Shown: piece by piece, positions 843 through 16,700 of the stretch
How positions within the stretch are numbered: the first letter of the stretch is position 1
Layout: every line of letters starts with the position of its first letter
DNA from: Oscillibacter sp.
GTDB taxonomy: Bacteria > Bacillota > Clostridia > Oscillospirales > Oscillospiraceae
Direction: 5' to 3'
Assembly: GCA_017547085.1 (NCBI GenBank)
Contig: JAFYQM010000046.1
Span: forward strand, 1 to 60,221
DNA length: 60,221 nucleotides
Program-made: the position numbers and the translations under genes
The notes under the pieces: generated by a model
Databases searched by the model: none
What the model was told of the DNA's origin: nothing
What the model saw: only the letters and a program-made list of their open reading frames with translations

Positions 843-889
843 AGAAAATACAGCGGTAAAGACAGTGATCTGTCTTTACCGCTGTTTGC
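843..889 (-). terminator. Terminator downstream of livF
   Basis: A perfect 16-bp stem (850-865 with 870-885, loop TGAT) is followed on the minus strand by TATTTTCTC. It lies 86 bases after the livF stop and ends the liv operon. The plus-strand side has only a weak T run. Confidence 0.85.
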
Positions 890-974
890 ATACTGCAGGT
901 ATTTCACGGACGTAATTTATCACCATGTCATGGCGATTGGTCTGTGGAGATTCCTCCAGCAGAAAGACTCTGAA

Positions 975-1679
975 TTAAATGCCTAAATATGCCTGACGAA
1001 TGCTCTCGTCAGCCAGCAGGTTCTTCGCATTGCCCTCTTTCACGTTCTGACCGTTCTCAATAACATAAGCGCGGTCTGCAACTTCCAGAGACAGCATCAC
1101 GTTCTGCTCAACCAGCAGAATGGTTCTGCCCATTTCATGCAGCTTCATAATGTTTTCAAACACGTCCTCGACCACCACGGGAGCAAGGCCAAGAGAAGGT
1201 TCGTCAAACATGATGATCTCAGGATGAGACATGATGGCACGGCTCACGGCCACCATCTGCTGCTCACCGCCGGACAGAGTGCCGGCAAACTGGTTGCGGC
1301 GCTCATACAGCTTCGGGAACAGGTCGAAACACATCTCCAAAGATTCTTTGCGATAAGGACGGGCTACCTTGTTGAAAGAACCAACCAGCAGGTTATCCAT
1401 AACTGTCATATAGGGGAACAGCTTACGGCCTTCAGGCACCTGCACAATACCCATCTGCACGCGGTCATTAGGGCGCATGTCATTGATGACCTGACCTTTG
1501 TAAATAATTTCACCCGAAACAGGCTTATTCAAGCCAGAGATGGTATTGATGGTCGTGGTCTTGCCGGCGCCATTGCTGCCCAGCAATGCCACGATCTCAC
1601 CTTCCTTGATCTCAAAGGAGATGCCCTGCAGTGCATGGAAATGACCGTAGTCTACATGTACATCGTTCAGTTTCAGCAT
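975..1679 (-). CDS. livF: Branched-chain amino acid-type ABC transporter ATP-binding protein LivF
   Basis: A 234-residue ATPase of the HAAT/Liv import family, one of the two cytoplasmic motor subunits. It shows Walker A GSNGAGKTT (34-42), the LSGGEQQ signature and Walker B IIMFDEPSLGLAP, with the short LivF-type C-terminus ending in AYLGI. The start overlaps the end of livG by 7 bases, giving translational coupling, and it is the last gene of livJHMGF. Family members carry branched-chain amino acids, but also amides, urea and aromatic acids, so the substrate is not fixed by homology. The catabolic genes next door suggest a carboxylic acid. Confidence 0.9.
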   Translation of the reverse strand: MLKLNDVHVDYGHFHALQGISFEIKEGEIVALLGSNGAGKTTTINTISGLNKPVSGEIIYKGQVINDMRPNDRVQMGIVQVPEGRKLFPYMTVMDNLLVGSFNKVARPYRKESLEMCFDLFPKLYERRNQFAGTLSGGEQQMVAVSRAIMSHPEIIMFDEPSLGLAPVVVEDVFENIMKLHEMGRTILLVEQNVMLSLEVADRAYVIENGQNVKEGNAKNLLADESIRQAYLGI

Positions 1680-2410
1680 TTCTTCTTTGCACCTCCCAGA
1701 TAGGAATCGATAACTTCCTGATTTGTGGAAACTTCCTGGGGTGTGCCTTCTGCAATCACAACGCCCTGATTGAGCACGTAGATGCGGTCAGACACGTTCA
1801 TAACGGCCTTCATGATATGCTCAATCATGATGATCGTATAGCCCTTCTTGCGCAGATTGAGCACCAACTCCATAGCCTCTTCGCACTCTGTCGGGTTCAA
1901 ACCTGCCATAACCTCATCCAGCAGGATGATATCGGGTTCCGTTGCCAGAGCGCGGGCGATTTCCATACGCTTGAGCTGAGGCAGACCCAGGTTTGCGCCC
2001 TTGGTATGAATGTGCTTGCCAAGGCCTAACTCCTCCAGAATCTCATCCGCTCTCTTGCGGGCACGCTCAATGTTTCTGTGACGGTTCAGGCAGCCCACCA
2101 TCACGTTCTCTTCCACGGTCAGAGAAGTGAACGGCTGCACCACCTGATACGTTCTGCCGATACCCATCTTGCAGATCTTATCTGCAGGCTTGCCGGTAAT
2201 ATCCTGTCCACGGTAGTAAATCTTGCCGCTGGTGGGCTTCAATGCGCCGGCCAGCATGTTGAACAGGGTGGTCTTGCCAGCACCGTTGGTACCGATTAGA
2301 CCCAGAATCTCACCCTCATTCAGGTGGATATTCACATCATTATTTGCGACCAGACCGCCGAACTTGATGGTTAGGTGCTCGGTCCGCAAGATCTCTTTCT
2401 GCTCACTCAT
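1673..2410 (-). CDS. livG: Branched-chain amino acid-type ABC transporter ATP-binding protein LivG
   Basis: The second ATPase of the Liv importer, 245 residues from ATG 2410. A GTG six bases upstream is in frame, but GGAGG at 2420-2424 is better spaced for the ATG. It has Walker A GTNGAGKTT, the LPQLKRMEIARAL form of the signature, Walker B IILLDEVMAGLNP and the C-terminal IAEGTPQEV stretch usual for LivG. The start overlaps the end of livM by 8 bases. It pairs with LivF as a heterodimeric motor on the LivH/LivM membrane core. Confidence 0.9.
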   Translation of the reverse strand: MSEQKEILRTEHLTIKFGGLVANNDVNIHLNEGEILGLIGTNGAGKTTLFNMLAGALKPTSGKIYYRGQDITGKPADKICKMGIGRTYQVVQPFTSLTVEENVMVGCLNRHRNIERARKRADEILEELGLGKHIHTKGANLGLPQLKRMEIARALATEPDIILLDEVMAGLNPTECEEAMELVLNLRKKGYTIIMIEHIMKAVMNVSDRIYVLNQGVVIAEGTPQEVSTNQEVIDSYLGGAKKKC

Positions 2411-3443
2411 GGACACTCGCCTCCTTTACCGCTACCTCTTTGGCCTGCTGCTTTTCATAACGCCGTTTCTCATACTTATCCTTCAGGCTCACCAGTCCCT
2501 TAGGCAGGAACATAACCACCAGCATCAAGATGATACCGTAAATCACGAAAGACAGACCAGACAGGCGGGCACCGAAAGATGCACGCATCCATTCGTTCAG
2601 AGGAACCAGCAAGGCGGCACCCAGAACAGGGCCCCACAGGGTACCCAGACCACCAACCACGGTCATCAGCATAATACGTGCAGACGTATCATAGTTGAAC
2701 ATGGACAGGGGGTCGATGGATGTCAGGAAGAAGGCATATACTGCGCCGCCCAGTGCCATCAGGAATGCACTGGAGCACAGAGCCATCAGCTTGTACTGCA
2801 TGATGTTCACGCCCAGAGAGCTTGCTGCATCCTGATTGGTAGTAATGGCTGCCAGATAGTAGCCCATCTTGGAGTTCTTGATGTACCAGCACAGGAGTAC
2901 GCACAGGATCATAAATACCAGGAAAATGTAATAGAAGGGGACCTTACTGACAAACTGCATGCCGGAGACACTCTCCCCCATCCACGAGATCTTCAGGCCG
3001 ACGGCGCCGCCGGTCTTGAATCCAAAGATTTCCTTGGAGGCGGCCATGGCGATACGGAAGCAGTTCAGCAGTGCCACAGAGGACAGCGTATAGTAGGAGC
3101 CTCTCATATGGAATGTTACATAGCCGATGATGCCTGCGATCACAGCTGCCACGATACCGGCGATGAACATGCCAATCCAGGGAGAGATACCGCCGTACAG
3201 ATACAGCATCACAGCCACATATGCACCAATACCGACATAACAGGCATGGCCCAAAGAGGTATGGCCGGCAAAACCGCCGATGATGTTATAAGCACTTGCC
3301 CAGTAGATGAACAACATCGTCAGGCAAGTCAGCTGAATTGCGTAAGCGCCAGTGGTCGGGAAAATGGGCAGAAGCGCCAGAATCAACAATACAACCGTCA
3401 CCAGAATGTTCTTCGGTGTAAGTAATTTTTTCTTATCAATCAT
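2403..3443 (-). CDS. livM: Branched-chain amino acid-type ABC permease LivM
   Basis: 346 residues, an integral membrane permease with eight or more hydrophobic segments. The GGFAGHTSLGHACYVGIGAYV region (about residues 58-77) and the later GGLGTLWGPVLGAALL loop are the conserved LivM signatures, the second being the ATPase-coupling region. ATG 3443 is preferred over an upstream GTG because GGGAGG lies 8-9 bases ahead of it. The C-terminus is charged and cytoplasmic. It forms the translocation pore with LivH. Confidence 0.9.
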   Translation of the reverse strand: MIDKKKLLTPKNILVTVVLLILALLPIFPTTGAYAIQLTCLTMLFIYWASAYNIIGGFAGHTSLGHACYVGIGAYVAVMLYLYGGISPWIGMFIAGIVAAVIAGIIGYVTFHMRGSYYTLSSVALLNCFRIAMAASKEIFGFKTGGAVGLKISWMGESVSGMQFVSKVPFYYIFLVFMILCVLLCWYIKNSKMGYYLAAITTNQDAASSLGVNIMQYKLMALCSSAFLMALGGAVYAFFLTSIDPLSMFNYDTSARIMLMTVVGGLGTLWGPVLGAALLVPLNEWMRASFGARLSGLSFVIYGIILMLVVMFLPKGLVSLKDKYEKRRYEKQQAKEVAVKEASVHE

Positions 3444-3459
3444 GTTCTGCACCTCCCCA

Positions 3460-4335
3460 TCAGCCTTTATCCTTGCTCAGGAGACCCGTGGGCTTGAAGA
3501 GCAGGATCGCAATAAACATGAGGAACACAATAATCTGAGCAACAGACTCAGAGAAGAACAGTGCACCGAACTTCTCAATCAAGCCGACAATCAGGCCGCC
3601 CAGCAATGCGCCTGGCACACTGCCTTTACCGCCCAGAACCACGATAATAAACGATTTATTGCTGAATACCGAACCAACAGTAGGATAGACAGAGAAATAA
3701 GGAATCAGCATGCCACCGGCCAAGCCCACCAGCATGGTGCCAATGGCGAAGCTGACGCTGTACACGCGCTTTTCACTGATACCCATCAAGGTTGCAACAC
3801 TGCGGTTCTGAGAGGTGGCACGAATGGCTCTGCCATACTCAGACTTCTGCAGGAAGGTCCACAGGGCAGCAACAGCGACAACAGCGATGATAAAAGCAAT
3901 AAGCTTAGGCAGAGAAACCACCAGATCGCCCATATGCAGGGCTCTGCCGTTGTACTTGGTTTGCGCCATAACCTGCTTGGAACCGAAAATGATCTGCACG
4001 CTGTAGCTCATCACCATGCCGAGGCCGGCGGTGAACAGCAGGCAGGAAATAGGCTCACGATCCGTTTCACGGGACAGGATGCGGGAAATGACTACGCTCT
4101 GCAGAACATAGCCGTATACGAACATGACCGCGCCGACGATCAGCATAATCACGTAAGGATCCAGGGGTGTGTATTGGTTCATGTAAAGAGCGATCAGCAT
4201 GGACACCATCAGGCTCTCACCGTGGGACCAGTTGATGACTCGCATGACGCCGAAGATCAAACTTAGGCCGACTGCGATGACGGAATACACGCCGCCGATC
4301 ATCAGTGCGTCAATAAATGTCTGTAAATAAAGCAT
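3460..4335 (-). CDS. livH: Branched-chain amino acid-type ABC permease LivH
   Basis: 291 residues from ATG 4335, which has GGGAGG five bases ahead; a longer in-frame extension to 4404 has no ribosome site. The family features are visible: an N-terminal GGVYSVIAVGLSLIFGVMRVINWSHG segment (given here as the GVYSVIAVGLSLIFG core plus NWSHG) and the VLGGKGSVPGALLGG coupling loop near the C-terminus. It is a multi-pass inner-membrane protein that partners LivM. The gap to livM is 16 bases and to livJ about 120 bases. Confidence 0.9.
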   Translation of the reverse strand: MLYLQTFIDALMIGGVYSVIAVGLSLIFGVMRVINWSHGESLMVSMLIALYMNQYTPLDPYVIMLIVGAVMFVYGYVLQSVVISRILSRETDREPISCLLFTAGLGMVMSYSVQIIFGSKQVMAQTKYNGRALHMGDLVVSLPKLIAFIIAVVAVAALWTFLQKSEYGRAIRATSQNRSVATLMGISEKRVYSVSFAIGTMLVGLAGGMLIPYFSVYPTVGSVFSNKSFIIVVLGGKGSVPGALLGGLIVGLIEKFGALFFSESVAQIIVFLMFIAILLFKPTGLLSKDKG

Positions 4336-4455
4336 TTTGGCCTCCCAAAAACTGTCTATAACCCAATGGGGCCCACCATCATTGCTAATGGCAGGCCCCA
4401 TCACAGCTATATCAACTTATGCGATACTGGATATGGGGATGGAGTCCGTGTCCAA

Positions 4456-5793
4456 TCAGGCAACGGGCCACACCAAGGGGTTGCCGCTCCAGTCGGGATA
4501 GATCTGACGGATCTGACCGTCAACGATCTGGGTCATAATACCAGCAGAGTAGATGTTCTGGTTCTGCATAACACCAGAGCCGTCCCAAGTTTCCTTTTCA
4601 CCCATCTTGATGCCCTCATAAGCGTGCAGCAGCAGTGCCAGGCTGTCACGGCCCAGATCCAGAGCCTTCATGGCGGCAGCAACAGCATCCTTATCCTTGG
4701 TGCCAGCATCTTCAACAGCCTGAATCAGAGTGGCAACGCCGATCCAGCCGTTAGCAACGTTCTCGTTCAGCTCGCTGCCGGTGTCTTCCTTGCAGCGCTC
4801 ACTCAGCCAATCGCACAGCTCGGGGTCATTGGACTCAGCCATGGTGTCAACGCACCAGCCGTTCAGAGTAATCTGGTTGTTGGCCAGATCGCCAACAGAG
4901 GTAATGAAGTCGTCGGTCAGGATGCCGCCGCCTGCCCAGATCAGAGCGTTGTCCAGGCCATACTCAGTATACTGGTTCATGAACAGAACTGCGTCGGACA
5001 CATACATGCAGGGCATGATGAAGCCAGCACCAGAGTTCTTAATTTTGTTCACGATGGTGGAGAAGTCAGCAGAGCCGGATTCGAAGGACTCGCAAATCTT
5101 CATCTCATAGCCGGCTGCTTCCAGAGCGGCTGCATAAGTATCAACGCAGCTGTTGCCCCAGTCAGTGTTCTCATAGATAATGGCAAAGCTGCTCAAGTCA
5201 ACGCTGGAATCCTTCTCCTGCAGGAATGCGAGGCAGTCGAGAATGGCGCCCACGTTGGAGGAGTTGGAGTGATTGGGGCGGAAGGTGTACTTCAGCTCAC
5301 CCTCGGTCATCTGAACGTTATCAGCGGTGCAGTTGGTAACGGTGAAGGGAACGCCATACTTCTCAGCGATGGGCTGCATAACAGCACCGACGGAGGAGTT
5401 GTAGGGGCCTGCCAGTGCGTCGACCTTCTCGTTGTTAATCAGACGCTCAGCTTCGGATGCACCGGTAGCGGGGTCGCCGGTGGAGTCGGCCAGAACCAGC
5501 TCGATCTTGGCACCGCCCAGAGACTGAATGCCGCCAATTGCTTCATTGTAATGTTCGGCAAACAGCTTCATGCCTTCGTACTGCAGTTCGCCCATACGAG
5601 CGGAGCCGCCAGTCATGGGAAGGACAACACCGATCTTGTAAACATCAGCACCGGAAGACTCCTCAGTCTTTGCGGACTCTTCGGTCTTTGCGGATTCCTC
5701 GGGCTTTGCGGATTCCTCGGGCTTATCGCCACCGCAGGCAACAAGAGACAGTGCCATTGCCAGAGTCAGAATGATCGCCAGAAACTTTTTCAT
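4456..5793 (-). CDS. livJ: Liv-type substrate-binding lipoprotein
   Basis: 445 residues from ATG 5793 with GGAGG at 5801-5805. The signal peptide ends in the lipobox LVAC-G with Cys20, so the mature protein is lipid-anchored outside the membrane. A Pro/Glu/Ser/Ala/Lys linker with repeated EESAK units (about 26-46) follows, then a periplasmic-binding fold (PBP type I, Leu/Ile/Val-like) opening with YKIGVVLPMTGG. It delivers substrate to LivHMGF and is the first gene of the operon. The ligand is unknown; its position opposite a CoA-transferase/thiolase cluster suggests an organic acid rather than an ordinary amino acid. Confidence 0.88.
   Translation of the reverse strand: MKKFLAIILTLAMALSLVACGGDKPEESAKPEESAKTEESAKTEESSGADVYKIGVVLPMTGGSARMGELQYEGMKLFAEHYNEAIGGIQSLGGAKIELVLADSTGDPATGASEAERLINNEKVDALAGPYNSSVGAVMQPIAEKYGVPFTVTNCTADNVQMTEGELKYTFRPNHSNSSNVGAILDCLAFLQEKDSSVDLSSFAIIYENTDWGNSCVDTYAAALEAAGYEMKICESFESGSADFSTIVNKIKNSGAGFIMPCMYVSDAVLFMNQYTEYGLDNALIWAGGGILTDDFITSVGDLANNQITLNGWCVDTMAESNDPELCDWLSERCKEDTGSELNENVANGWIGVATLIQAVEDAGTKDKDAVAAAMKALDLGRDSLALLLHAYEGIKMGEKETWDGSGVMQNQNIYSAGIMTQIVDGQIRQIYPDWSGNPLVWPVA
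5656..5718. repeat. Short in-frame tandem repeat in the livJ linker
   Basis: Imperfect 15-18-base units encode successive EESAK pentapeptides in the linker after the lipid-anchored cysteine. Slippage here would change tether length without breaking the frame. Confidence 0.6.
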
Positions 5794-6400
5794 TGCTTTT
5801 CCTCCATTTTTCATAATTTCGTTGTGCATTTTCGTGCCAATTGTGGGTTCGCCGTCAGCAAAATAAGTATAACATGCTGTTTTTTTGAGGTATATAGCAG
5901 AATAAACCGCGATTTTTAAAAAAAGTTGGTTTTAAACACATGTCTTCACAAGAAAAGATTTCCCTTCCCTTATCCCTCTAAGAAAATCGGGTACTGTACT
6001 TCTTTGGCTTTTCTTATCCTTAAATAATTGTTAAGTAAGCGTTTTCATTTTCTTATTTAAAGTCTCTAAATGAAGTTATTACACCACACACATAAAAAGG
6101 CGTATTTCATTGGCGACAGAGACATATCTTTCCCCCAAAATCTGCAATAAAATGAGTATGCTCAAAATGTGCAGGCAACCCGTCAGTTGTAAAAAACGCA
6201 CCAATTTTGTTTCCTTAACAGCCGCGGCATGCCGTCAGTAAGCATATTTGCTTTCGCGTCTGTTTTAGAAGCCTTGTGGTTTTCGCCGTCAGTCTTTCCA
6301 ATTTCCTTGTCCGTGCGGTCCCACTTTATCGTTTTTGTATTTCCCGTTTTTTCCCTCAAAAATTAGCTTCGATTTCATGAAGTGTTCAGGAGGAATTACC
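5794..6400. promoter_or_regulatory. Divergent control region between the liv operon and the CoA cluster, with a recurring GCCGTCAG motif
   Basis: About 600 AT-rich bases without a gene separate the two divergent operons. The octamer GCCGTCAG occurs at 5851-5858, 6231-6238 and 6285-6292, and CCGTCAG at 6180-6186, all on the plus strand. A TATACT -10-like box for the liv direction lies at 5866-5871, right beside the first motif, but its -35 is poor. Directly repeated sites on one strand are typical of AraC-family operators, so these may bind the AraC protein encoded at 8462. That link is inference. Confidence 0.45.
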
Positions 6401-7552
6401 ATGATAAAAATTCTTGACGATGTTCGAGTTCTCGATTTAAGCAGATACATTTCCGGCCCCTCTTGCTGCCGCATTTTGGCAGATATGGGCGCCGAAGTCA
6501 TAAAGGTAGAAAAGGCCGGCCACGGCGACGAAGGCCGCCACTGCGGCCCCTTCCACAATGGATCCAGCCTCTATTTCCCTGCATACAACCGCAACAAGAA
6601 AAGTATTACCATCGACTTCCGCAGCGAAAAGGGCAAGGCTGTTCTGCGCGGGTTAATCGAAAAGAGCGATGTTATCGTGGAAAACTTCCGCGCTGGCACC
6701 ATGGCTAAAATGGGACTGGGGTTTGAAGAGATCCAGAAGATCAATCCCGGTGCAATTCTGGTCTCCATCAACGGCTTCGGTCAGTTTGGCCCGGATTCCA
6801 AACGCCCCGCCTACGATCAAATCATCTCTTACCGCGCGCACCTGTACTCCAATCCCGCTGAAGGCGAGTTCCATCTGGGACCGGACCTGATGAGTGACAC
6901 CATTATGGGCATGAATGCCGCCACCGCCGCAATCCTCGCCCTGTATGACCGGAAGAAGACCGGAAAAGGCCAGTGGCTGGACTGCTGCATGCTGACTTCC
7001 TCTGTAGGTTCCTGGCCTATCGCGCTGGCAGACTACGCCATGAACGGCGACCGCGGTCCCTATCTCATTGATGCCCCCAACGGCATTTTCAAGACCAAGG
7101 ATGGCTATGTACAGCTGACCAGCGGCCCGCAGCCCATGTTCATGCGCCTGCGGGAAATCATTGAGGATCCCATTATTCAGGACGAGAAGTATATTGACGG
7201 CAAGAACCGCATTCAGGACGCTGACCTGCTGGTGGAGCGCGTTGCGGTCTGGATGAAGGAGCACACCTGCGCAGAGGTGGACGAGATCATGGACACAAAC
7301 GGTATCACCTGCGGAAAGGTTTGTACCTGGCAGGATGTGCTGGACGACCGTCAGCTCGCCTACCGAGACGACATCATTCACCTCCCTGTGAAAAACTGCG
7401 GCACTGTTCCCTACGCAAAGTTCCCTGTTCACTTCTCGGGCCACGAATATCTCGAGGACACCCCGGTGCCAGAACTGGGCGAAAACAATATCGATATCCT
7501 CACCTCCTTGCTGGGCATGACTCCCGAAGAGGCGGAAGCGCATACCAAGTAA
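6401..7552 (+). CDS. Type III (CaiB/BaiF-family) acyl-CoA transferase
   Basis: 383 residues from ATG 6401 with AGGAGGA upstream. The family N-terminus is present (VRVLDLSRYISGPSCCRILADMGAEVIKVE), here as the RVLDLSRYISGP and DMGAEVIKVE blocks, followed by NRNKKSI, VIVENFRAG and NGFGQFGP. Asp166 in the LMSDTIMGM segment fits the aspartate that forms the acyl anhydride/CoA intermediate in formyl-CoA transferase. Members move CoA from an acyl-CoA donor to a carboxylate without ATP. As the first gene of the cluster it probably activates the imported acid. The family includes oxalate, carnitine, bile acid and aromatic acid enzymes, so the substrate cannot be named. Confidence 0.88.
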   Translation: MIKILDDVRVLDLSRYISGPSCCRILADMGAEVIKVEKAGHGDEGRHCGPFHNGSSLYFPAYNRNKKSITIDFRSEKGKAVLRGLIEKSDVIVENFRAGTMAKMGLGFEEIQKINPGAILVSINGFGQFGPDSKRPAYDQIISYRAHLYSNPAEGEFHLGPDLMSDTIMGMNAATAAILALYDRKKTGKGQWLDCCMLTSSVGSWPIALADYAMNGDRGPYLIDAPNGIFKTKDGYVQLTSGPQPMFMRLREIIEDPIIQDEKYIDGKNRIQDADLLVERVAVWMKEHTCAEVDEIMDTNGITCGKVCTWQDVLDDRQLAYRDDIIHLPVKNCGTVPYAKFPVHFSGHEYLEDTPVPELGENNIDILTSLLGMTPEEAEAHTK

Positions 7553-7595
7553 TCTTTTGAATACATCGTTTATATATTAAAGGTAGTTTGTCTCC

Positions 7596-8345
7596 ATGAA
7601 ATCTTTTGAAGGCCGCGTAGCAGTCGTAACCGGCGCCGCTCAGGGAATCGGTTATGCTGTTGCGGAAAAGCTGATTGAAGAAAAAATCTCCGGCATTGCC
7701 ATTCTGGACTGGAATGCGGATGCCATTCAGGCAGCAGCGGAAAAGCTGTCCGCTGCTACCCCCGAAACCAAGGTCATGCCTGTGCAGTGTGACATCGCTG
7801 ACGCAGATGCTGTTGACAGGGCTTTCGCAGCCATCGAAGCCACTTTGGGCGGTATCGACATTCTGGTCAACAACGCTGGCATCACCCGTGACATCATGTT
7901 CCATAAGATGAGTTTCCAGCAGTGGGACAGTGTTGTGAAGGTCAATCTGTATGGCACCTACAACTGCTGCAAGGCAGTTATGCAGGGAATGCGTGACCGG
8001 AACTACGGTCGTATTGTCAACTTGTCCTCCGTGGTGGCCTACGGCAATGCAGGTCAGGTCAACTATAGTGCCACAAAAGGCGCGATCATCAGTATGACTA
8101 AGACCCTTGCCAAAGAAGGTGCCCGTAGAAACATCACCGTTAATGCTATCGCTCCTGACTGCATCGATACTGCTATGATGCGTGCGGTTCCCCCTGCTTT
8201 CCTACAAGATTTGCTAAATCGCCATCCCATGCAACGTTTGGGAAAGCCGGAAGAAGTCGCTTCTCTAGTGGCATTTCTATCCAATGAGGAGTGCAGCTAT
8301 GTGTCCGGTACAGTCATTGACTGCAGTGGTGCCAACAGAACTTGA
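7596..8345 (+). CDS. SDR-family oxidoreductase (FabG-like)
   Basis: 249 residues, a classical short-chain dehydrogenase: TGAAQGIG cofactor loop (12-19), NNAG (92-95), catalytic Ser144/145, Tyr157 and Lys161 in YSATK. Asp38 after the second strand favours NAD(H) over NADP(H), which is an inference from the family rule. It closely resembles 3-oxoacyl-ACP/CoA reductases, but its place among CoA-ester genes suggests oxidation or reduction of a hydroxyacyl-CoA or a ring alcohol. It lies 43 bases after the CoA-transferase and is probably cotranscribed. Confidence 0.85.
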   Translation: MKSFEGRVAVVTGAAQGIGYAVAEKLIEEKISGIAILDWNADAIQAAAEKLSAATPETKVMPVQCDIADADAVDRAFAAIEATLGGIDILVNNAGITRDIMFHKMSFQQWDSVVKVNLYGTYNCCKAVMQGMRDRNYGRIVNLSSVVAYGNAGQVNYSATKGAIISMTKTLAKEGARRNITVNAIAPDCIDTAMMRAVPPAFLQDLLNRHPMQRLGKPEEVASLVAFLSNEECSYVSGTVIDCSGANRT

Positions 8346-8372
8346 TTTCTTCCTCACAAAAACAGGTTTGAG

Positions 8373-8414
8373 TTTGTATTAGATTTATAATTTGTATAGA
8401 ATTTTGTATAGAAT
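8373..8414. repeat. Direct repeats upstream of the AraC-family gene, likely operator
   Basis: TTTGTATAGAAT occurs twice in perfect tandem (8391-8402 and 8403-8414), and a near copy TTTGTATTAGAT lies at 8373-8384. The repeats sit 48-89 bases before the regulator's start codon. Directly repeated half-sites are the normal binding pattern of AraC-family proteins, so autoregulation is likely. Confidence 0.6.
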
Positions 8415-8461
8415 ATGCAGAATACCCAAATGCTTATCTATAAATAGGAGGTCTAATACAA

Positions 8462-9286
8462 ATGAATCATGCAATAGAACTCTATTCGGCTTGTTTCTTT
8501 GAGTACGATGGAACGCAGCGTACCGTCCCTCATGTGCACAATGAAGTCTATCAACTCTACTACGTTGAAAGCGGATCCCTAATCTACCTGTACGATAAAG
8601 AACGCATCAATTTAACAAAAGGACAGTTTTTGTTGGTTGTCCCCGGCGTTGAGCACGGAATGATTACACAAGGCCCCAGCAATGTGCTTGATATCAAATT
8701 TGGTATTTTCGATTCCTTGCTTCGTGCCAGTGTCACGAAAAAGCTGGCAGGCTTTCAGCGAGCAACGCCGGAAGCGGTGCACATATTCGCTTCCATTGTC
8801 GCTCTTCAAACAGCAAACAGCACATATTTCCACCGTATTTCATCCCTTTATCTGGAAACGATTTTTTATCTCATGCTTCAGGATATTGCGCTTGCCCCTT
8901 CGTATCTCAGAGATGATCCGGGTATTCAGGGCAATTTCCAACATTTAAGTTCATGCGTCAGGCGAGCTCTGCCTTTTGTGGAAGGGTCTCTTGTTTACCC
9001 GGTGGCCCCGTTCAGCCCCGAAAGCATCGCAAACCAAGTCGGCTATAACACACGATATATCAGCAGCAAATTTTCCGAGGAAATCGGCATCAGTCTGACC
9101 AAGTATTTTCGGATTCTTCGCATCAACAAAGCAAAAGACCTTTTGTATAATACCGATTTAAAAATAACGGTTATTTCAAAACTCTTAAATTACGAAGACG
9201 TTTCCCAATTCATCAAACATTTCAAAAAAAGCACAGGTATGAGTCCAAATGAATACAGAAATTATCACCGGAATGCCCCTACGTGA
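8462..9286 (+). CDS. AraC-family transcriptional regulator with cupin sensor domain
   Basis: 274 residues. The N-terminal half (about 15-90) is a cupin-like pocket (PHVHNEVYQLYYVESGSL) and the C-terminus (about 175-270) holds two helix-turn-helix units ending in VSQFIKHFKKSTGMSPNEYR, the AraC hallmark. AGGAGG lies upstream. Base composition is lower in GC than the neighbouring enzymes. Inside the CoA cluster, and with direct repeats before it, it most likely senses the substrate or its CoA ester and switches on the cluster and perhaps the liv operon. Confidence 0.88.
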   Translation: MNHAIELYSACFFEYDGTQRTVPHVHNEVYQLYYVESGSLIYLYDKERINLTKGQFLLVVPGVEHGMITQGPSNVLDIKFGIFDSLLRASVTKKLAGFQRATPEAVHIFASIVALQTANSTYFHRISSLYLETIFYLMLQDIALAPSYLRDDPGIQGNFQHLSSCVRRALPFVEGSLVYPVAPFSPESIANQVGYNTRYISSKFSEEIGISLTKYFRILRINKAKDLLYNTDLKITVISKLLNYEDVSQFIKHFKKSTGMSPNEYRNYHRNAPT

Positions 9287-9315
9287 TGCATTCCATCGGA
9301 TAGGAGGAACATAAC

Positions 9316-10518
9316 ATGAGAGAAGTAGTATTTGTAGAGGTCGCCCGTTCTGCTTTCGGCAGAAGAGGCGGCTCATTAAAGACCTTGCTGCCCGTGGATC
9401 TGGCCGGTTTAGTTATCAAGGGTCTGGTAGAAAAGAGCAGCATTTTGGAGCGTGGCAAGGTGGACAGTTTGATTTGCGGTGGCGCTTTCGGTACCGTAAA
9501 TTCCTGGGCACCTGCCCGTTATGCATGCCAGGCTGGTGGTCTGCCCTTTGATACCTCAGCCTCCTGGGTGGAAATGCAGTGCGGTAGCGCTATCGACTCC
9601 ATTAACCATGCGGCATGGAAAATCATTGCCGGGGCAGCAGATGTGGTCATCGCCGGCGGCTTTGAATCCCACAGCCAGTTCTTCGCAAAGTTCTCCTGCA
9701 GCGTAGAACCTTACAAGAGCATCCTCCCCGCAGCGGTTCCTCAGAGCCTGTCTCCCTTTACCGAGCAGGACATCTCTATGATTCAGGTTTCTGACGGCAT
9801 GGCTCGTAAGTGGGGTGTGACTCGCGAAGAGTGCGACGAGTTCGCATATCAGTCTCAGATGCGCGCCTATGAAGCTCAGAGCAAGGGCTATTTCAAGGAT
9901 GAGATCATCCCCATCATCATCAAGGGCGGTAAGAACAAGCCCGACATCATCGTGGACACCGACGAGCATCTGCGTCCTGAGACCACCATGGAAGGACTCG
10001 CCAGGCTGAAGCCCGTTCTGGGTCCTGACGGCTTTACCACCGCAGGTAACGCCTCCGGCACCAACGACGGTGCAGCATTCGTGCTGATGATGAGCGCCGA
10101 TAAGGCAAAGGAACTGGGCTATGAGCCCATCGCCCGCTGGGTCTGCGGTGCAGATTACGGCGTGGAGCCTCGCTACATGGGCATTGGCCCCGCATACTCC
10201 AACCTGCTGGCTCTGAAGCGTGCCGGTCTGACCGTGAAGGATCTGGACGTCATCGAGTGCAATGAGGCATTTGCCGCACAGAACGTTTCCGTCATTAAGG
10301 AAATGGAAAGCCAGATTGGCTACACTATCGATCGCAGCAAATGGAATCCAAACGGTGGTGCCATCGCTTTCGGTCATCCCAACGGCGCATCCGGTGCCCG
10401 TATCGGCATCTTTGCTATGAAGGAACTGGAGCGTACCGGCGGCCGTTACGGTCTGTTCGGTGCCTGCTGCGGCGGCGGCCACGGCGTGACCACTCTGATT
10501 GAAAACCTGCAGAGATAA
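9316..10518 (+). CDS. Thiolase (acetyl-CoA C-acyltransferase family)
   Basis: 400 residues. All thiolase elements are present: nucleophile Cys89 in QCGSAIDS, NEAFAAQ (316-322), GHPNGASGARIG with His354, and Cys384 in ACCGGGHG. The RGK-type start and TTAGNASGTNDGAA stretch also fit. It should cleave a 3-oxoacyl-CoA with CoA, releasing acetyl-CoA or a related product, or run in the condensing direction. The wording around Cys89 (CGSAIDS rather than the common CxSGLxA) marks it as divergent from housekeeping ThlA. It is directly followed by three dehydrogenase-like genes, 11 bases before the first. Confidence 0.87.
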   Translation: MREVVFVEVARSAFGRRGGSLKTLLPVDLAGLVIKGLVEKSSILERGKVDSLICGGAFGTVNSWAPARYACQAGGLPFDTSASWVEMQCGSAIDSINHAAWKIIAGAADVVIAGGFESHSQFFAKFSCSVEPYKSILPAAVPQSLSPFTEQDISMIQVSDGMARKWGVTREECDEFAYQSQMRAYEAQSKGYFKDEIIPIIIKGGKNKPDIIVDTDEHLRPETTMEGLARLKPVLGPDGFTTAGNASGTNDGAAFVLMMSADKAKELGYEPIARWVCGADYGVEPRYMGIGPAYSNLLALKRAGLTVKDLDVIECNEAFAAQNVSVIKEMESQIGYTIDRSKWNPNGGAIAFGHPNGASGARIGIFAMKELERTGGRYGLFGACCGGGHGVTTLIENLQR

Positions 10519-10529
10519 GGAGAGGCATT

Positions 10530-11237
10530 ATGATTTATATCATCGGAAACAATCTTAAATCTATACTGCTCCGGAATGCTGCTTTAAAGGCTGGCCTTGA
10601 TGCAGATATTTGCGAGAGTGTTAATGATATTCAAGAAGAATGTGACCTCATCATTCTGAACACTGAAGAGGATCTGGAGAGCCGCCAGGCAGAAGTAGCT
10701 GTATTGGCAGAAAAGACTTCTGCCCCCATTGCAGCGACGATCAGCCTGAACTATGCCTGCGCAATGGCAAAGAATGCTACAGACAAGAGCCGTATCGTTG
10801 CTATCCGCACTATGGAGGACGAATACATTGGAGAGTACATTGAACTGACAAAGACATTCGATACAGATGAATCTGTCTATGCGAAAGTGTTGGAGATTCT
10901 GAAAAGCTTTAACGGTCGTGTAGCGGAAGTCCCCGATATTATTGGCGGCATTTTCTACCGCATTATGTTCCTTAACAGCAACATGAGTGCATACCTCGTT
11001 TCTGAAGGTGTGACCGTAACTGATGTGGACAACTCCATGCGTTACGGTGCAAATATTAAGCGTCCTTCTCTCCAGATTGCAGATGAAATCGGCCTCGATC
11101 GCGTACTGGAAATCCTGACGGTTCTCTATCATGAAACCGGCCGTCCGGCCTATCGTCCCTGTCCTCTGCTCAAGCAGATGGTAAACGCAGGCCGTCTGGG
11201 CAAGAAGACCGGTCAGGGCTTCTATACATATGACTGA
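10530..11237 (+). CDS. 3-hydroxyacyl-CoA dehydrogenase-like protein with a degenerate NAD domain
   Basis: 235 residues, about 50 fewer than normal members. The C-terminal helical domain is well kept: GGIFYRIMFLNSNMSAYLVSEG, IKRPSLQIADEIGLDRVLEI and the closing LVNAGRLGKKTGQGFYTYD-type block (seen as NAGRLGKKTGQGFY). The N-terminal Rossmann part is shortened: the GxGxxG loop is replaced by IIGNNLKS and no catalytic His-Glu pair is recognisable. It probably does not bind NAD normally and may instead be a structural or regulatory partner of the complete dehydrogenase that starts 15 bases later. The frame is open with its own GGAGAGG site, so it is not an obvious pseudogene. Confidence 0.7.
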   Translation: MIYIIGNNLKSILLRNAALKAGLDADICESVNDIQEECDLIILNTEEDLESRQAEVAVLAEKTSAPIAATISLNYACAMAKNATDKSRIVAIRTMEDEYIGEYIELTKTFDTDESVYAKVLEILKSFNGRVAEVPDIIGGIFYRIMFLNSNMSAYLVSEGVTVTDVDNSMRYGANIKRPSLQIADEIGLDRVLEILTVLYHETGRPAYRPCPLLKQMVNAGRLGKKTGQGFYTYD

Positions 11238-11252
11238 TCAGGAGGGTGCATT

Positions 11253-12098
11253 ATGGAATTCAAGAAAATCGGTATTGTCGGCACCGGCCTGATGGGCGGC
11301 GGCATTGCGCAGGTCTGTGCACAGGTAGGATACGAAACAGTCAGTTTCGATGTGAACGAAGCTGCTTTTGAGCGCACCAAAGGGCTCATTCAGGGCAGCA
11401 TGGACAAAATGGTTGCCAAAGGCAAATTCACGCAGGAATTTGTGAATGAAGTTCTGGGACGCATGAGTTATACGACTGATATCACGAAACTGGCTGACTG
11501 CGACATCGTTGTGGAAGCCGTTTTTGAGAATCTGGATATTAAGCTGAACGTCCTGAAACAGGTAGAAGAAGTGGTCAGTGAAAAGTGCCTGATTTTTACC
11601 AACACCTCTGCTCTCTCCATTACTACTTTGTCTACCGTTCTGAAGCACAGAGGCCGTTTCATGGGCACTCACTTCTTCGCACCGGTTCCCGCCATGAAGC
11701 TGCTGGAGCTGGTCCCCGGTCTGGATACCACCGACGAAACCTACGAAGGCGCTGTCCAGTGGGCCCAGAGTATTAAGAAGATCACCATTAAGGCTCCCGA
11801 CACCTGCGGCTTCATCACCAACCGTCTCTTCCCTCTGCCTCAGAACGAAGGTGCAGAGTTGCTGGCGCTGGGTGTGGATCCCTATGACATCGACGCTGCC
11901 TGGATCATGTTCAATCAGGCTCCCGTAGGTACGCTGTCCATTGTAGATACCGGTGGTTCTCACACCACTCTCGGCTGTCTGACCTCCATTTACGAAGGCA
12001 ACGAAGATGATCGCTATCGTCCTCACCCCTATATCAAGCGCTTGGTGTCTGCAGGCCGTCTCGGTGTCAAAACCGGCCAGGGCATTTTTAAGTGGTAA
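11253..12098 (+). CDS. 3-hydroxyacyl-CoA (3-hydroxybutyryl-CoA-like) dehydrogenase
   Basis: 281 residues, normal length for the Hbd family. GTGLMG (10-15) binds NAD, and the catalytic set is intact: Ser119, His140 in GTHFFAPVP, Glu152 and Asn190 in GFITNR. The usual HFFNP motif reads HFFAP. The C-terminal domain ends in AGRLGVKTGQGIFKW. The region after the hinge (FNQAPVGTLSIVDTGGSH) departs from ordinary Hbd, suggesting a different acyl group. It oxidises a (3S)-hydroxyacyl-CoA to the 3-oxo form, the step before the thiolase. A terminator follows at 12111. Confidence 0.88.
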   Translation: MEFKKIGIVGTGLMGGGIAQVCAQVGYETVSFDVNEAAFERTKGLIQGSMDKMVAKGKFTQEFVNEVLGRMSYTTDITKLADCDIVVEAVFENLDIKLNVLKQVEEVVSEKCLIFTNTSALSITTLSTVLKHRGRFMGTHFFAPVPAMKLLELVPGLDTTDETYEGAVQWAQSIKKITIKAPDTCGFITNRLFPLPQNEGAELLALGVDPYDIDAAWIMFNQAPVGTLSIVDTGGSHTTLGCLTSIYEGNEDDRYRPHPYIKRLVSAGRLGVKTGQGIFKW

Positions 12099-12110
12099 TT
12101 TCAATGAATG

Positions 12111-12140
12111 CGCGGATGGCCACCCATCCGCGTATTTTTA
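12111..12140 (+). terminator. Hairpin terminator between the second and third dehydrogenase-like genes
   Basis: CGCGGATGG (12111-12119) pairs with 12124-12132 around loop CCAC, followed by TATTTTTA. It lies 12 bases after the preceding stop codon and should end, or weaken, the main CoA-cluster transcript. Confidence 0.85.
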
Positions 12141-12171
12141 ACCAAATAACTACTGCAAGAGGGGAGACGTT

Positions 12172-13104
12172 ATGGATCTGAAGCAAAAGAATATTGTGAT
12201 TATCGGCAAAGGGATGATTGGTATGGGATTTGCCGCACTGCTTACTGGAAACGGCATTCCTGCAACTGTTTTCGCAAAAGATTCCCACATTGCCCTTGCT
12301 CGCTATGATGCGATTTTTGCTTATCTGGAAGAAAACCAGCTAGTAACCCCGGCACAAAAAGAAAAATGTCGTTCTCTGCTTCGTTTTACCAATGCATACG
12401 AAGACATCTCGGATGCAGAAATCGTCATCGAATGCATCGTGGAAAAATTGGATGTAAAACAGGATGTCTATGCCAAGCTGGAGACTCACTGCCCCTATCT
12501 TTCCGTGATTGCATCTGCCTCTTCGGCCATTTCTCCCGACGATCTGTGTGCAGCTATGCAGAAAAAAGATATCCTTTTGGTAGCGCATCCCTATAATCCC
12601 GCATATCTGGTTCCCTGTGTGGAACTGGTCCCCAGCGAATACACTTCCCCGGAAGCTATGGATCTTACCTACCAGATGCTGGATCTCCTTGGCCGCGAAG
12701 TCATTGTCATGAAGAAAGCCGCCCCTGGCTTTATCGCTAATCGATTACAACACGCCCTGATTCGTGAAGCTCTTCATATGATTGAATTTGGTCTTGCAGA
12801 ACCTACAGATATTGATCGTGCTTTAATGACAAGTTTTATTCCTCGCTACACAACCGTTGGTCTTTTAGAAAACATCGACAATGCCGGCTTAGATCTGGAA
12901 GCAAACGTCGAAGACTATCTTTTTCCGGAATTAGGGAACGAAAGTAAAGCTTCTTCTTACTTAAGAGATCGTATTGCCCATGGTGAAACGGGCGCCAAAG
13001 CAGGTAAAGGTATCTATTGTAATTGGACTCATGAAAAAATCCAGGATCTTCACCGTCGAGCAGCTAAACCGTATCTATCCTTTTTTAATTGGAATTTGCC
13101 GTAG
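12172..13104 (+). CDS. 3-hydroxyacyl-CoA dehydrogenase family protein, carnitine/gulonate dehydrogenase-like
   Basis: 310 residues with GKGMIG as the NAD loop (about 12-17), VEKLDVKQDVYAKLE, and AHPYNPAYLVPCVELVP around the catalytic His. HPxNPxYLxPxVEL is typical of the branch that acts on free hydroxy acids (L-carnitine dehydrogenase, L-gulonate 3-dehydrogenase/lambda-crystallin) rather than CoA esters. PGFIANRLQHALIREALH gives the conserved Asn-Arg. It is separated from the other genes by a terminator, has its own AGAGGGGAGA site and is clearly more AT-rich, so it may have a different history. Substrate unknown. Confidence 0.78.
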   Translation: MDLKQKNIVIIGKGMIGMGFAALLTGNGIPATVFAKDSHIALARYDAIFAYLEENQLVTPAQKEKCRSLLRFTNAYEDISDAEIVIECIVEKLDVKQDVYAKLETHCPYLSVIASASSAISPDDLCAAMQKKDILLVAHPYNPAYLVPCVELVPSEYTSPEAMDLTYQMLDLLGREVIVMKKAAPGFIANRLQHALIREALHMIEFGLAEPTDIDRALMTSFIPRYTTVGLLENIDNAGLDLEANVEDYLFPELGNESKASSYLRDRIAHGETGAKAGKGIYCNWTHEKIQDLHRRAAKPYLSFFNWNLP

Positions 13105-13168
13105 TTTTCTTGTTTTATCATAATTAATTACAAATATTTTACTTATCAAATGTTAAGAAGATAAATCT

Positions 13169-13203
13169 AACGCCGCTGTCTGCAAATTGCAGGCAGCGGC
13201 GTT
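13169..13203. terminator. Strong hairpin after the third dehydrogenase-like gene
   Basis: AACGCCGCTG (13169-13178) pairs with CAGCGGCGTT (13194-13203), and the inner TGCAA/TTGCA bases extend the stem. No good T run follows on either strand, so it is a probable but imperfect terminator. Confidence 0.55.
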
Positions 13204-13609
13204 CTCATCATATACGGAGTTTTGTTGCATGGGTGCTTTACTCATTGCGCCCTTCGTTATTATTCTTTGGTTATAGCGGTGTAATATTTGATTAATGAAG
13301 TCGGCGGATACCACCTGATCGGCCATTTCTGTAGGGGCTTTTGGAGCGAAAAAGATGCAAAAAGTTCCCCTAAGAACTGTTCGCAGAAAGAGGTTGCCAA
13401 TTCTCTCCGGCAGGGGTAAACTGTAAACAAGGAAAAATCTCCCCTGCAGCCGTGCGTTTTCGGTGAGAAAGCCTTTTGACCACATGTACAACCACAGTTC
13501 GATGCGGAACAAGTGGATACACTGAGGCACAGCAGGTTTAAAGAGTTTCAGCTGTGGACACAATCAGCGTGGAAAGCGTCAAATAGCGCCGGAAAAAGTT
13601 TTCCCAATC
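13204..13609. other. Unassigned 400-base stretch next to the tRNA scar
   Basis: No recognisable gene. A 136-codon minus-strand frame (13153-13563) is open, but it has no good ribosome site, runs through the hairpin and matches no family I know. The stretch sits between the catabolic block and the tRNA fragment, where degraded integrase or transposase sequence would be expected. I see no transposase or recombinase motif. Confidence 0.5.
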
Positions 13610-13656
13610 CGTTCGCATCGCAGAGGTCGAGGGTTCGATCCCCTTCGAGTCCACCA
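13610..13656 (+). pseudogene. 3' fragment of tRNA-Ala(CGC), probable attachment-site scar
   Basis: The fragment begins within the anticodon stem: loop TTCGCAT (anticodon CGC), 3' anticodon stem CGCAG, variable loop AGGTC, T arm GAGGG-TTCGATC-CCCTT, 3' acceptor strand CGAGTCC, then A and CCA. The acceptor U at position 70 fits the G3-U70 identity pair of tRNA-Ala. The expected 5' half (acceptor GGGCTCG, D arm, anticodon stem CTGCG) is absent; the bases ahead (ATCCG) do not pair. Integrases commonly recombine in tRNA 3' halves and leave such a copy. The native terminator follows. Confidence 0.8.
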
Positions 13657-13660
13657 CACA

Positions 13661-13695
13661 AAAAGGCTTGAAACCACAGGGTTTCGGGCCTTTTT
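13661..13695 (+). terminator. tRNA-type terminator after the tRNA-Ala fragment
   Basis: AAAAGGCTTGAAACC pairs with GGTTTCGGGCCTTTT around loop ACAG, five bases after the tRNA CCA end. It resembles a normal tRNA terminator, so the fragment kept the 3' flank of a tRNA gene. Confidence 0.85.
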
Positions 13696-13734
13696 CTCTT
13701 GTCCCGCGATGTCTCAGCGCGCTTGATCCGCAAA

Positions 13735-13769
13735 AACCAGCGCCGCAGAATAACTCTGCGGCGCTGGTT
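13735..13769 (-). terminator. Terminator downstream of the RND efflux operon
   Basis: AACCAGCGCCGCAGA (13735-13749) pairs perfectly with 13755-13769 around ATAAC, with TTTTTG following on the minus strand. It lies ten bases beyond the pump gene's stop. Confidence 0.85.
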
Positions 13770-13778
13770 CTTTAATTA

Positions 13779-16700
13779 TTATCCCTGTGCCTCTGCCGAT
13801 TCCGCAGGCAAATCCTTTTTCTTTCTGCGCAGGCGGCGGGGCAGGTCGTCGATCACGGAGTAGTAGACCGGCGTAAATACCAGCGTAATGATGGTGGAAA
13901 TGATCATGCCGCTCATCATAGTCAGGCACATATCCGTCATCATTTCCGGCGTGTCACCCGTAGCCATTGCCATAGGTACCATGGCAAGAACGGTGGTAAT
14001 GGTCGTCATCATCACGGGGCGGATACGCAGGGGGCAGGCATGCAGGATGGCCTCCTCACGCGCCTCACCACGACCGCGGCGCACATTGATGTAGTCCACC
14101 AGAATGATGGAGTTGTTGACCACCGTACCGGCCAGCATGATCAGCGCCACCATGGAGATGATGGACAGGTCGCGTCCGGTCACCGGCAGGATAAAGAGGG
14201 CGCCGCTGAATGCCACCGGCAGGATCATCATCACGATCACCGGCATCAGGAAGGACTCAAATTGAGCCGCCAGAATAAAGTACACCAGACCCAGTGCCAC
14301 AACCAGCGCCAGCAGCAGATCGCCAAAGCCCTCCATCATCTCGGTGTAGCTGCCGGAAATGGCAGCATCATAGCCCTCGGGGAACTGATAGTTTTCCAGA
14401 ATGCTGTTGATCTGTGCAGTCATTCCCGTCACATTGCCGCTGAGGGTACTGCCGGTAACCGAGACCTGACGGGCCTGATCCACACGGTGAATGGTCTGCG
14501 GTGCCTGAACGATCTCCACATGCGCAATGCTGCTCAGGGGCACATAACCGCCCATGGGTGTGGCAACCGTCATCGAGCGCAGCGCATCCAGATTGGCTGC
14601 TGCTCTGCCGTCGCCGCGCACTACAACATCCAGCGTCTTATTGTTGATCATCACAGAGGTGGCGGTTTCACCCGTCAGGGCAGACCGGACCGCGGCGCCG
14701 ATCTGCGCGGCAGTCAGGCCGTACTGAGAGGCATTCTCCCGGTTAATGGAAACCGTGACCTGCGGCACCTGATCGGCTACGGAACTGCTGACTTCAACGG
14801 CGTCAGGCAGCGCACCGATCTGAGCGGCCAGATCGTCCGCGATCATGGAAAGCGTGGTGAAATCATCGCCGGTAACGTCCACGCTGATTTCGCTTCCGCT
14901 CATCATGGAGGTCATATCGGACGCCACCACAGAGAGTTCGCATCCTGCAATGTCCTGCATCAGCACGCGCATATCGTCCGCAATTTCCTCGCTGGAGCGC
15001 TTTCGGTCGTGGCGGCCGGGCAGCGTCAGCGTCACGCTGGCAGTCTCATCGCCGGCCGTATAATACACAGAGGTCAGTTCCGGAACATGTTCTTCTACAA
15101 TCGCGCAGATCCGGTCCGCGATGGCCGCGGTTTCATCCACCTGCGCGCCGATGGGCATGCTGACGGTAATGGAAACCTGACCCATATCCATGGAGGGCAG
15201 GAACACCATATTCGTGGACAGGCAAGCCGCCACGAACACTGCCACCAGACCGAAGGATGCCAGCATACCGGCTTTCAGATGATGGACAAAGTGATCAAGC
15301 AGGCGCAGATAGGTCTGATACAGCTTACCGATCCAGCCGCCCACGGTTGCCACCAGAGCATTGGGCTTTTTGTTTGCACGCTTCAGATGATCCGCACGAA
15401 TTTTCTCCTCATCCAGCAGGAAATAACACAGGACAGGCACCCACGTCAGAGCAACAACCATAGAGCCCAGAATCAGGAAGGAAATGGTGAGACAGAAGTC
15501 ATCGAACAGCATACCTGCAATACCACCGGAAAGGCCGATGGGCAGGAAGACCGCCACCGTGGTCAGCGTGGATGCCAAAACGGAAGTGGTAACCTCCTGT
15601 GTGCCCTCTACGCAGGCAGTCATGCGGTCATGTCCCTCCAAGGCATACCGGTAAATATTTTCCAGCACCACAATGGAGTTATCCACGATCATCCCGACGC
15701 CCATGGCAATGCCGCCCAGACTCATCATGTTCATCGTCAGATCAAACACGTTCATCATGACGAACGTTGCCAGCACACACACCGGCATGGAAACGGCAAT
15801 GGTCATGGTGGCGCCCCAGCGGCGCAGGAACAGGAACACTACGATGGCAGCCAGAAGCACACCCATCAAAATACTGCTGATGGACGAGTCCACTGCCAAG
15901 TCAATAAAATCAGAGGCGAGATAGGGGATACCGTAGTGAATGTTGCGGTTTTCTTCCGCCAGTTTTTCCATCTGGGCCGCCACCGCCCTGGCAGCAGCGT
16001 GCTCGTTGGCGCCGGACTGCTTGGAAACCTGTAAAATCACGCAGTTTTTGCCATCCATCTTTGCCACATCATCAGACGGAATGGTTTCCAGATACACATC
16101 CGCAACTTCTTTCAGGCGGATCGTTCCTCCGGTTGGCAGGGCAATGATCATGTTTGCCACATCGTCCACGCTCTGGAACTTGGCGTCGGTACTCACCGTC
16201 AGGGTCTTGTTGCCGTTCTGCAAATCGCCGCCGGGAAACAGCAGGTTTTCCGCTGCCAGGAATTGCATGATATAGCTGTTGGAAAGGTTGTATCCGGCGG
16301 CGCGGGTAGAATCCACATCCACAGAAACCTGTTCCGTGATGCCGCCGCTGATGGTAACGGAGGCAACGCCGTCAATGCGTTCCAGTGCGGGAACCACGAC
16401 ATCCTCCGCCAGCGTCTGCGCCGCAGCCAGATCGTCACCAAGCAGAGCCACCATAGCCGTGGGGATCATGTCGCTGAGGTTCATGTTGACGATGATCGGA
16501 TCAATAGCGCCATCCGGCAGGGACAGCAGCGCAAATTTTTCACGCAGCTTTGTGGCGGCAATATCCAGATTGGTGCCCTCCACATAGGTGATCTGGATCT
16601 GGGACGTGCTGTCAGAGGAGGTGGAGGACACACCCTCCACGCCGGGAACGGACAAAATCGCCGTTTCCAGCGGACGGGTCACCATCTCCTCCATATCGCT

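Follow-up and report, generated by a model that had tools for sequence, protein, structure and literature searches.

The window analyzed here is the whole contig JAFYQM010000046.1 (60,221 nucleotides; contig C43 in the following) of a metagenome-assembled genome (MAG; G000) of Oscillibacter sp., which comprises 1.9 Mb on 97 contigs and has a completeness of 82.9% and a contamination of 4.3%. At its left end lies a gene island in which livJHMGF, encoding a Liv-type (HAAT) ATP-binding cassette (ABC) importer, is divergent from genes for a type III coenzyme A (CoA)-transferase, a short-chain dehydrogenase/reductase (SDR), an AraC-family regulator, a thiolase and three proteins of the 3-hydroxyacyl-CoA dehydrogenase (3HCDH) family (Table 1). 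The importer genes run on the minus strand from livJ (4456-5829) leftwards to livF (975-1679), and the other genes occupy the plus strand from 6395 to 13104. This layout had been described in the original prediction, and all of its genes are present and confirmed by strong family matches. The range given there, 4456-13104, includes livJ alone of the liv operon; livHMGF and a transaldolase-like gene are located to the left of it. With a Peripla_BP_6 protein, two permeases and two ATPases the importer is complete, and the solved chain nearest to LivJ is 8wch (E 5.5e-35). The list of open reading frames (ORFs) starts the CoA-transferase at a TTG (6335); the ATG at 6395 agrees with the start of the homologue on contig C14 of the same genome. 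Only weak short repeats were found in the divergent region (5780-6420), and an Rfam search of positions 1-16000 gave three matches, all under their gathering scores.

Table 1. Genes and other features at the left end of the window.
Feature	Position	Strand	Evidence
Transaldolase-like gene, cut by contig start	2..622	-	TAL_FSA E 7.7e-23; 99% to C90 copy, residues 1-189
livF, ABC ATPase	975..1679	-	58% / 47% to C90 / C14 homologues
livG, ABC ATPase with BCA_ABC_TP_C	1673..2416	-	Family match
livM, permease	2403..3452	-	BPD_transp_2 E 1.6e-28
livH, permease	3460..4404	-	BPD_transp_2 E 4e-37
livJ, Liv-type binding lipoprotein	4456..5829	-	Peripla_BP_6 E 3.3e-51
Type III CoA-transferase	6395..7552	+	CoA_transf_3 E 4.8e-92; Asp168
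SDR, FabG/acetoacetyl-CoA-reductase-like	7596..8345	+	Family models, motifs
AraC-family regulator, cupin-type ligand domain	8462..9286	+	36% to C14 regulator
Thiolase (acetyl-CoA C-acyltransferase)	9316..10518	+	TIGR01930 374.8 bits vs cut-off 240.55
Degenerate 3HCDH-family protein, 235 aa, probably not catalytic	10530..11237	+	C-terminal domain only, motifs missing
3-Hydroxyacyl-CoA dehydrogenase, motifs intact	11253..12098	+	Family models, motifs
3HCDH-family dehydrogenase, nearest FHMPC-, carnitine-, lambda-crystallin-type enzymes	12172..13104	+	Models, solved proteins
tRNA-Ala(CGC) 3' fragment	13608..13656	+	90% to intact tRNA on C20 of own genome

The CoA-transferase contains the CoA_transf_3 domain with the expected Asp168, the thiolase has both domains with Cys89, His354 and Cys384, and the SDR, which scores well with FabG/acetoacetyl-CoA-reductase models, carries Tyr157 and Lys161. 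The second and the third of the 3HCDH genes contain both GxGxxG and H-x11-E; we take these residues of the four enzyme types to be the catalytic ones. The best scores of the third 3HCDH gene were obtained with 3HCDH-family models and solved proteins including pyridoxic-acid-pathway, carnitine and lambda-crystallin dehydrogenases. Nearest to it are the pyridoxic-acid-pathway dehydrogenase and lambda-crystallin, whose relatives act on free hydroxy acids. BLAST searches (E 1e-5) with three enoyl hydratases, two acyl-CoA dehydrogenases and two ligases as reference proteins found no match among the window ORFs of at least 80 amino acids, in line with the original prediction, which had noted these three functions as missing. 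Genome-wide, ECH_1 and Acyl-CoA_dh_1 each gave a single match, located outside the three gene sets described below.

Sets paralogous to that of the window are present on contigs C90 and C14 of the same MAG. The thiolases of both are 85% identical to that of the window, and the SDRs are 76% (C90) and 69% (C14) identical; the C14 CoA-transferase shows 77% and the intact 3HCDH of C90 83% identity to their window counterparts. Since thiolase and SDR are conserved while the binding proteins of C90 and C14 are only 32% and 31% identical to LivJ, the importer appears from these comparisons to be the variable part of the sets, probably feeding different ligands into one core. All five thiolase matches of the MAG (E 1e-60) sit in the three sets, and no separate butyrate-type thiolase was found at this threshold. 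Both further sets include a zinc dehydrogenase. The C90 set also has a UxaE-family gene and two additional thiolases, and the C14 set a DeoC-like gene, which scores just above the NCBIfam cut-off (118.1 vs 117.3 bits) and has no Pfam match. Scyllo-inosose 3-dehydrogenase is the best or second-best NCBIfam model for the two zinc dehydrogenases, at 186.7 and 166 bits far below its cut-off of 450. In a tree of 36 thiolases, built from 29 of the 80 loci of the scan reported below together with the paralogues of the own genome and of locus L049, the three own copies and those of the MAG SIG485 form one clade (support 100/100). Because the same families lie together in two further clusters of the genome and in SIG485 (L049), the gene set is not a chance assembly. 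Four of the five CoA_transf_3 matches of the own genome belong to the three sets, and the fifth is located on contig C52 (L172, 889-11372), tail to tail with a LacI regulator gene and 41% identical to the CoA-transferase of the window. That locus also encodes a sugar-type ABC importer, an SMP-30/gluconolactonase-family protein, an aldehyde:ferredoxin oxidoreductase and a ferredoxin protein, and shows a weak thioesterase match.

The first of the 3HCDH genes is degenerate. Its Pfam match covers the C-terminal 3HCDH domain only, part of the N-terminal domain is missing, and both GxGxxG and H-x11-E with the catalytic histidine are absent. Of the three 3HCDH-like genes named in the original prediction, all belong to the family, and this one is without the nucleotide-binding motif and the catalytic residue. 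Copies with 80% (C90; L009, 5076-5786) and 77% (SIG485; L049, 11232-11948) identity show that it is maintained as a protein. Searches at family level covered 400 genomes; the degenerate protein has matches in 11 of them (E 1e-25), exceeds 36% identity only in the two copies of the own genome, and has no match in the 8 other genomes of the genus contained in this sample. Judged from its motifs and conservation, the protein is probably not catalytic and likely represents a conserved pseudoenzyme beside an intact paralogue.

The original prediction had asked whether the same genes occur together in other genomes and would have been refuted if homologues never did so; the combination does recur, and this refutation fails. 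A genome scan found 135 relatives, and 80 loci were retained; neighboring families up to 7 kb away were assigned by BLAST (E 1e-15) against a reference set of our own, and many flanks fall short of that distance. A type III transferase is located within 7 kb of the thiolase at 9 of the 19 loci titled Bacillota and at 1 of the 61 others, three of which (L087, L088, L095) carry no phylum in their title and were counted as non-Bacillota. All nine Bacillota loci with this pair also have an SDR or a 3HCDH, and seven of the nine show no enoyl hydratase or acyl-CoA dehydrogenase, with a flank shorter than 2 kb in three of these seven. The SIG485 locus L049 mirrors the order of C90: LivJ (cut), transferase, LivHMGF, two thiolases, transferase, SDR and thiolase are followed by the degenerate and intact 3HCDH, a zinc dehydrogenase and UxaE. 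Importers vary here as well, with oligopeptide-type binding proteins at L122 and L057 and a Liv importer at L049. Close relatives of the window CoA-transferase (E 1e-90) were found in a single one of the 400 family genomes, the own one, and plasmids gave no thiolase match at E 1e-60. A thiolase of the same clade (70% identity) occurs in Flavonifractor (L050, 8962-21155) together with a 3HCDH, a 2-hydroxyglutaryl-CoA-dehydratase-family subunit and type I CoA-transferase-like and enoyl-hydratase-like genes, as part of another fermentative acid pathway.

A transaldolase-like gene is linked to all three sets, the copies (besides that of the window L009, 3063-4112, and L010, 6882-7931) being 97-99% identical to that of C90, and a cupin gene lies near it in C90 and C14. 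Contig C79 begins inside a further copy (L160, 2-391; 99%, residues 213-341), followed by a cupin, two SDRs and a 3HCDH-family gene. Near-identical copies break assemblies, and since both C43 and C79 terminate within such a copy, the transaldolase probably broke the assembly here; thus, C79 may be the continuation of C43. Among the 12 genomes behind 13 chosen thiolase loci, SIG485 is the only one with this transaldolase (88% identity), in a block with an SDR, a zinc dehydrogenase and a cupin, a FGGY carbohydrate kinase upstream, and a DeoR regulator and an SBP_bac_8 binding protein nearby. The Oscillibacter locus L057 combines a thiolase of 65% identity with a PF01144 CoA-transferase, a 3HCDH, an SDR (60%), a zinc dehydrogenase, a transketolase and a DeoC that scores clearly above its cut-off (219 vs 117 bits). 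The presence of the transaldolase in each set, together with the cupin, the zinc dehydrogenases, the UxaE- and DeoC-like genes and the carbohydrate kinase in SIG485, suggests a polyhydroxylated, sugar-acid-like substrate.

Transaldolase matches occur in 11 of the 400 family genomes (E 1e-20), and the surroundings were read in seven genomes besides the own one (G157, G324, G254, G244, G383, G317 and G355). In G317 (L166, 1326-11331) and G383 (L167, 4694-14607) a distant transaldolase is found with a Liv importer, an SDR, a zinc dehydrogenase and a xylose-isomerase-like barrel (scanned in G317), and the reductases of both clusters pass the tartronate-semialdehyde-reductase cut-off (482 and 485 vs 397 bits). 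These clusters perhaps encode a transaldolase route from keto-uronates to fructose 6-phosphate and tartronate semialdehyde. For the barrel of G254, IolO is the top-scoring model, at a score under its cut-off (210 vs 300). Together with SIG485 and L057, these neighborhoods favor a polyhydroxylated substrate, short of proof. A sulfo-sugar transaldolase was considered and set aside: the chain BmSF-TAL (8bc3) matches at E 3.6e-4 only, and the G317 and G383 reductases fail the sulfolactaldehyde model (206 and 207 vs 348 bits).

The right border of the island is marked by a 49-base 3' piece of tRNA-Ala(CGC), beyond which the flank is shared by much of the genus. Among the best matches from the genus, the right flank becomes homologous from about 13815-13855. 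The G+C content is 0.46-0.52 over the first 14 kb and 0.54-0.62 further to the right. Because a stretch of C14 outside its set (66-86 kb) has 0.50-0.56, this contrast is weak genome-wide. Fragments of tRNA genes can mark tRNA-targeted integration. ARAGORN detected no tRNA in the fetched flanks of the relatives (L176-L186, L191, L192), among which no clean empty site was seen. The island was likely gained by transfer.

Our tentative reading is that the island serves to import a polyhydroxylated carboxylic acid resembling a sugar acid and to degrade it in the form of CoA thioesters. In the scheme that we infer, each reaction, the order of the steps and the class of substrate are putative. LivJ would bind the acid and LivHMGF import it, after which the type III CoA-transferase would convert it to the acyl-CoA, with an acyl-CoA product of the pathway as donor. 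Either the SDR or the intact 3HCDH, perhaps one enzyme per configuration, would oxidize the beta-hydroxyl group to the 3-oxoacyl-CoA. The thiolase would then release acetyl-CoA, or glycolyl-CoA if C2 is hydroxylated, and a shorter acyl-CoA, so that the shortened product as well as acetyl-CoA could donate CoA in the next round. The transaldolase-like enzyme would take over the sugar-like remainder, with the cupin and the zinc dehydrogenase where present, and the AraC protein probably controls the gene set. The original prediction had proposed an acid that already bears a beta-hydroxyl group and is given CoA, oxidized and cleaved. That scheme is plausible but incomplete. It fits a set in which CoA-transferase, 3-hydroxyacyl dehydrogenase and thiolase occur without the dehydrogenation/hydration half of beta-oxidation; it had been made without sight of the sugar context.

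Several known systems were compared with the island. An L-carnitine CoA-transferase was rejected, as the CoA-transferase reaches 117 bits with this model (cut-off 413), and the classical fatty acid or aromatic beta-oxidation set was put aside since the island showed neither an enoyl hydratase nor an acyl-CoA dehydrogenase. The bbs genes for beta-oxidation of benzylsuccinate likewise encode a type III CoA-transferase, a dehydrogenase and a thiolase, and inactive partner subunits are known there. Unlike the island, bbs and fatty acid beta-oxidation clusters also include acyl-CoA dehydrogenase and enoyl-CoA hydratase. Of the inositol and uronate genes (IolM, IolO, UxaE), C90 and L049 contain a UxaE-family gene, whereas the IolM-like zinc dehydrogenases are far below the IolM cut-off; to our knowledge, the inositol/uronate route has no CoA steps.

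The closest precedent is the deoxyribonate cluster of Klebsiella michiganensis M5al (BWI76_RS23695-RS23730), which comprises a CoA-synthetase, a lactonase, a glycerate kinase and two major facilitator superfamily (MFS) transporters (PMC6365646). In the proposed route the sugar acid is turned into its CoA thioester, which a beta-hydroxyacyl-CoA dehydrogenase oxidizes and a thiolase cleaves, yielding acetyl-CoA and a shortened acyl-CoA, with CoA handled by a CoA-transferase; mutant fitness data back the CoA-synthetase, dehydrogenase, thiolase and CoA-transferase, and the authors state that direct evidence for the cleavage is lacking (PMC6365646). Like this cluster, the island unites genes for beta-hydroxyacyl-CoA dehydrogenase, thiolase and CoA-transferase. 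It differs in its transaldolase, its SDR, the three genes of the 3HCDH family, the Liv ABC importer and the type III class of its CoA-transferase; the two are likened by gene content, not by sequence. No CoA-synthetase was found among the scanned island proteins or by BLAST with the two ligases among the window ORFs, the contig ending left of the island. A glycerate kinase is not in the island either; the genome has its only PF02595 match on C87 (C87:5350-6462), and such a kinase is also present in 5 of 14 control genomes. Lactonase and MFS transporters are not in the island, which has the Liv importer instead; the SMP-30/gluconolactonase-family gene is that on C52. By analogy the island may work like the Klebsiella pathway, and we do not claim it as a member. 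In Pseudomonas simiae and others, the 3-hydroxyl of deoxyribonate is reported to be oxidized and a beta-keto acid cleavage enzyme to yield glyceryl-CoA, on the free acid (PMC6365646). This route and the island would share an oxidation at the 3-hydroxyl group of a sugar acid and a subsequent cleavage; no member of the beta-keto acid cleavage enzyme family was found among the island proteins scanned. A partial literature search found no paper on the gene set of the island. The original prediction could match the set to no named pathway; the CoA-linked Klebsiella cluster is a close precedent (PMC6365646).

Several observations weigh against degradation of a sugar-type acid. The contig comes from a MAG with 82.9% completeness and 4.3% contamination; the transaldolase of the window is cut, lies on the importer strand and is apart from the CoA genes, and the contig has no cupin or zinc dehydrogenase of the C90/C14 kind. 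Between the own sets, the window CoA-transferase shares no more than 31% and 29% identity with its two C90 counterparts, and the C14 set has no 3HCDH gene. In SIG485 the transaldolase block and the CoA genes are on different contigs, and CoA genes were not seen at the distant transaldolase loci of the seven genomes read. Furthermore, members of the thiolase clade outside Bacillota adjoin fatty acid or 4-hydroxybutyryl-CoA-type genes, so that the thiolase alone does not imply sugars. The last point, with ligases, acyl-CoA dehydrogenases or 4-hydroxybutyryl-CoA-dehydratase-like genes as the neighbors, would also agree with an ordinary hydroxylated acid (alicyclic, aromatic-derived, branched or hydroxy-fatty) that is activated, oxidized and cleaved, the transaldolase and cupin being mere neighbors. 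So would the separate SIG485 contigs, and aromatic or branched acids are common cargo of Liv-type importers. We consider an ordinary acid less likely than a sugar-type one, given the linkage of the transaldolase to all three own sets, the UxaE and zinc dehydrogenase genes in two genomes and the lack of enoyl hydratase and acyl-CoA dehydrogenase in the sets.

The enzymes could also run in the building direction, with the thiolase condensing, the SDR and 3HCDH reducing as in butyrate or hydroxyalkanoate formation, and the CoA-transferase freeing the end product. That each set has its own importer argues against this, and the single enoyl hydratase and acyl-CoA dehydrogenase, which could complete butyrate formation, are encoded outside the sets. 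The confinement of all thiolase matches to the sets and the reductase-like scores of the SDR point towards synthesis, but a separate thiolase may be missing because the MAG is 83% complete; overall, we regard the building direction as quite improbable. Far more remote still is that the thiolase opens a cyclic 1,3-diketone derived from an inositol-like compound to the CoA ester of a keto sugar acid, from which the CoA-transferase would recover CoA and which UxaE and the transaldolase would process further. We know of no thiolase that opens cyclic 1,3-diketones, the window set has neither UxaE nor the zinc dehydrogenase, and the 3HCDH genes would have no clear role; the feature in its favor is UxaE and the scyllo-inosose-3-dehydrogenase-like zinc dehydrogenases (below cut-off) beside the C90 and C14 sets.

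If the degradation of a polyhydroxylated acid as CoA thioesters is correct, the island may, with considerable doubt, represent a hitherto undescribed CoA route of the Oscillospiraceae that handles sugar-type acids without a ligase, in which interchangeable Liv importers serve a conserved core of type III CoA-transferase, SDR/3HCDH and thiolase, a dead but conserved 3HCDH acts as partner subunit and a transaldolase-like enzyme recovers the remainder. Cleavage of a CoA-bound sugar acid is, in the literature found, proposed only for deoxyribonate in K. michiganensis, where a ligase is used (PMC6365646). The degenerate dehydrogenase offers a testable case of a conserved pseudoenzyme, and three importers on one core form a natural panel for finding the substrates. 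Anaerobes of the Oscillospiraceae would then degrade polyhydroxylated acids by acyl-CoA chemistry, spending no ATP on their activation.

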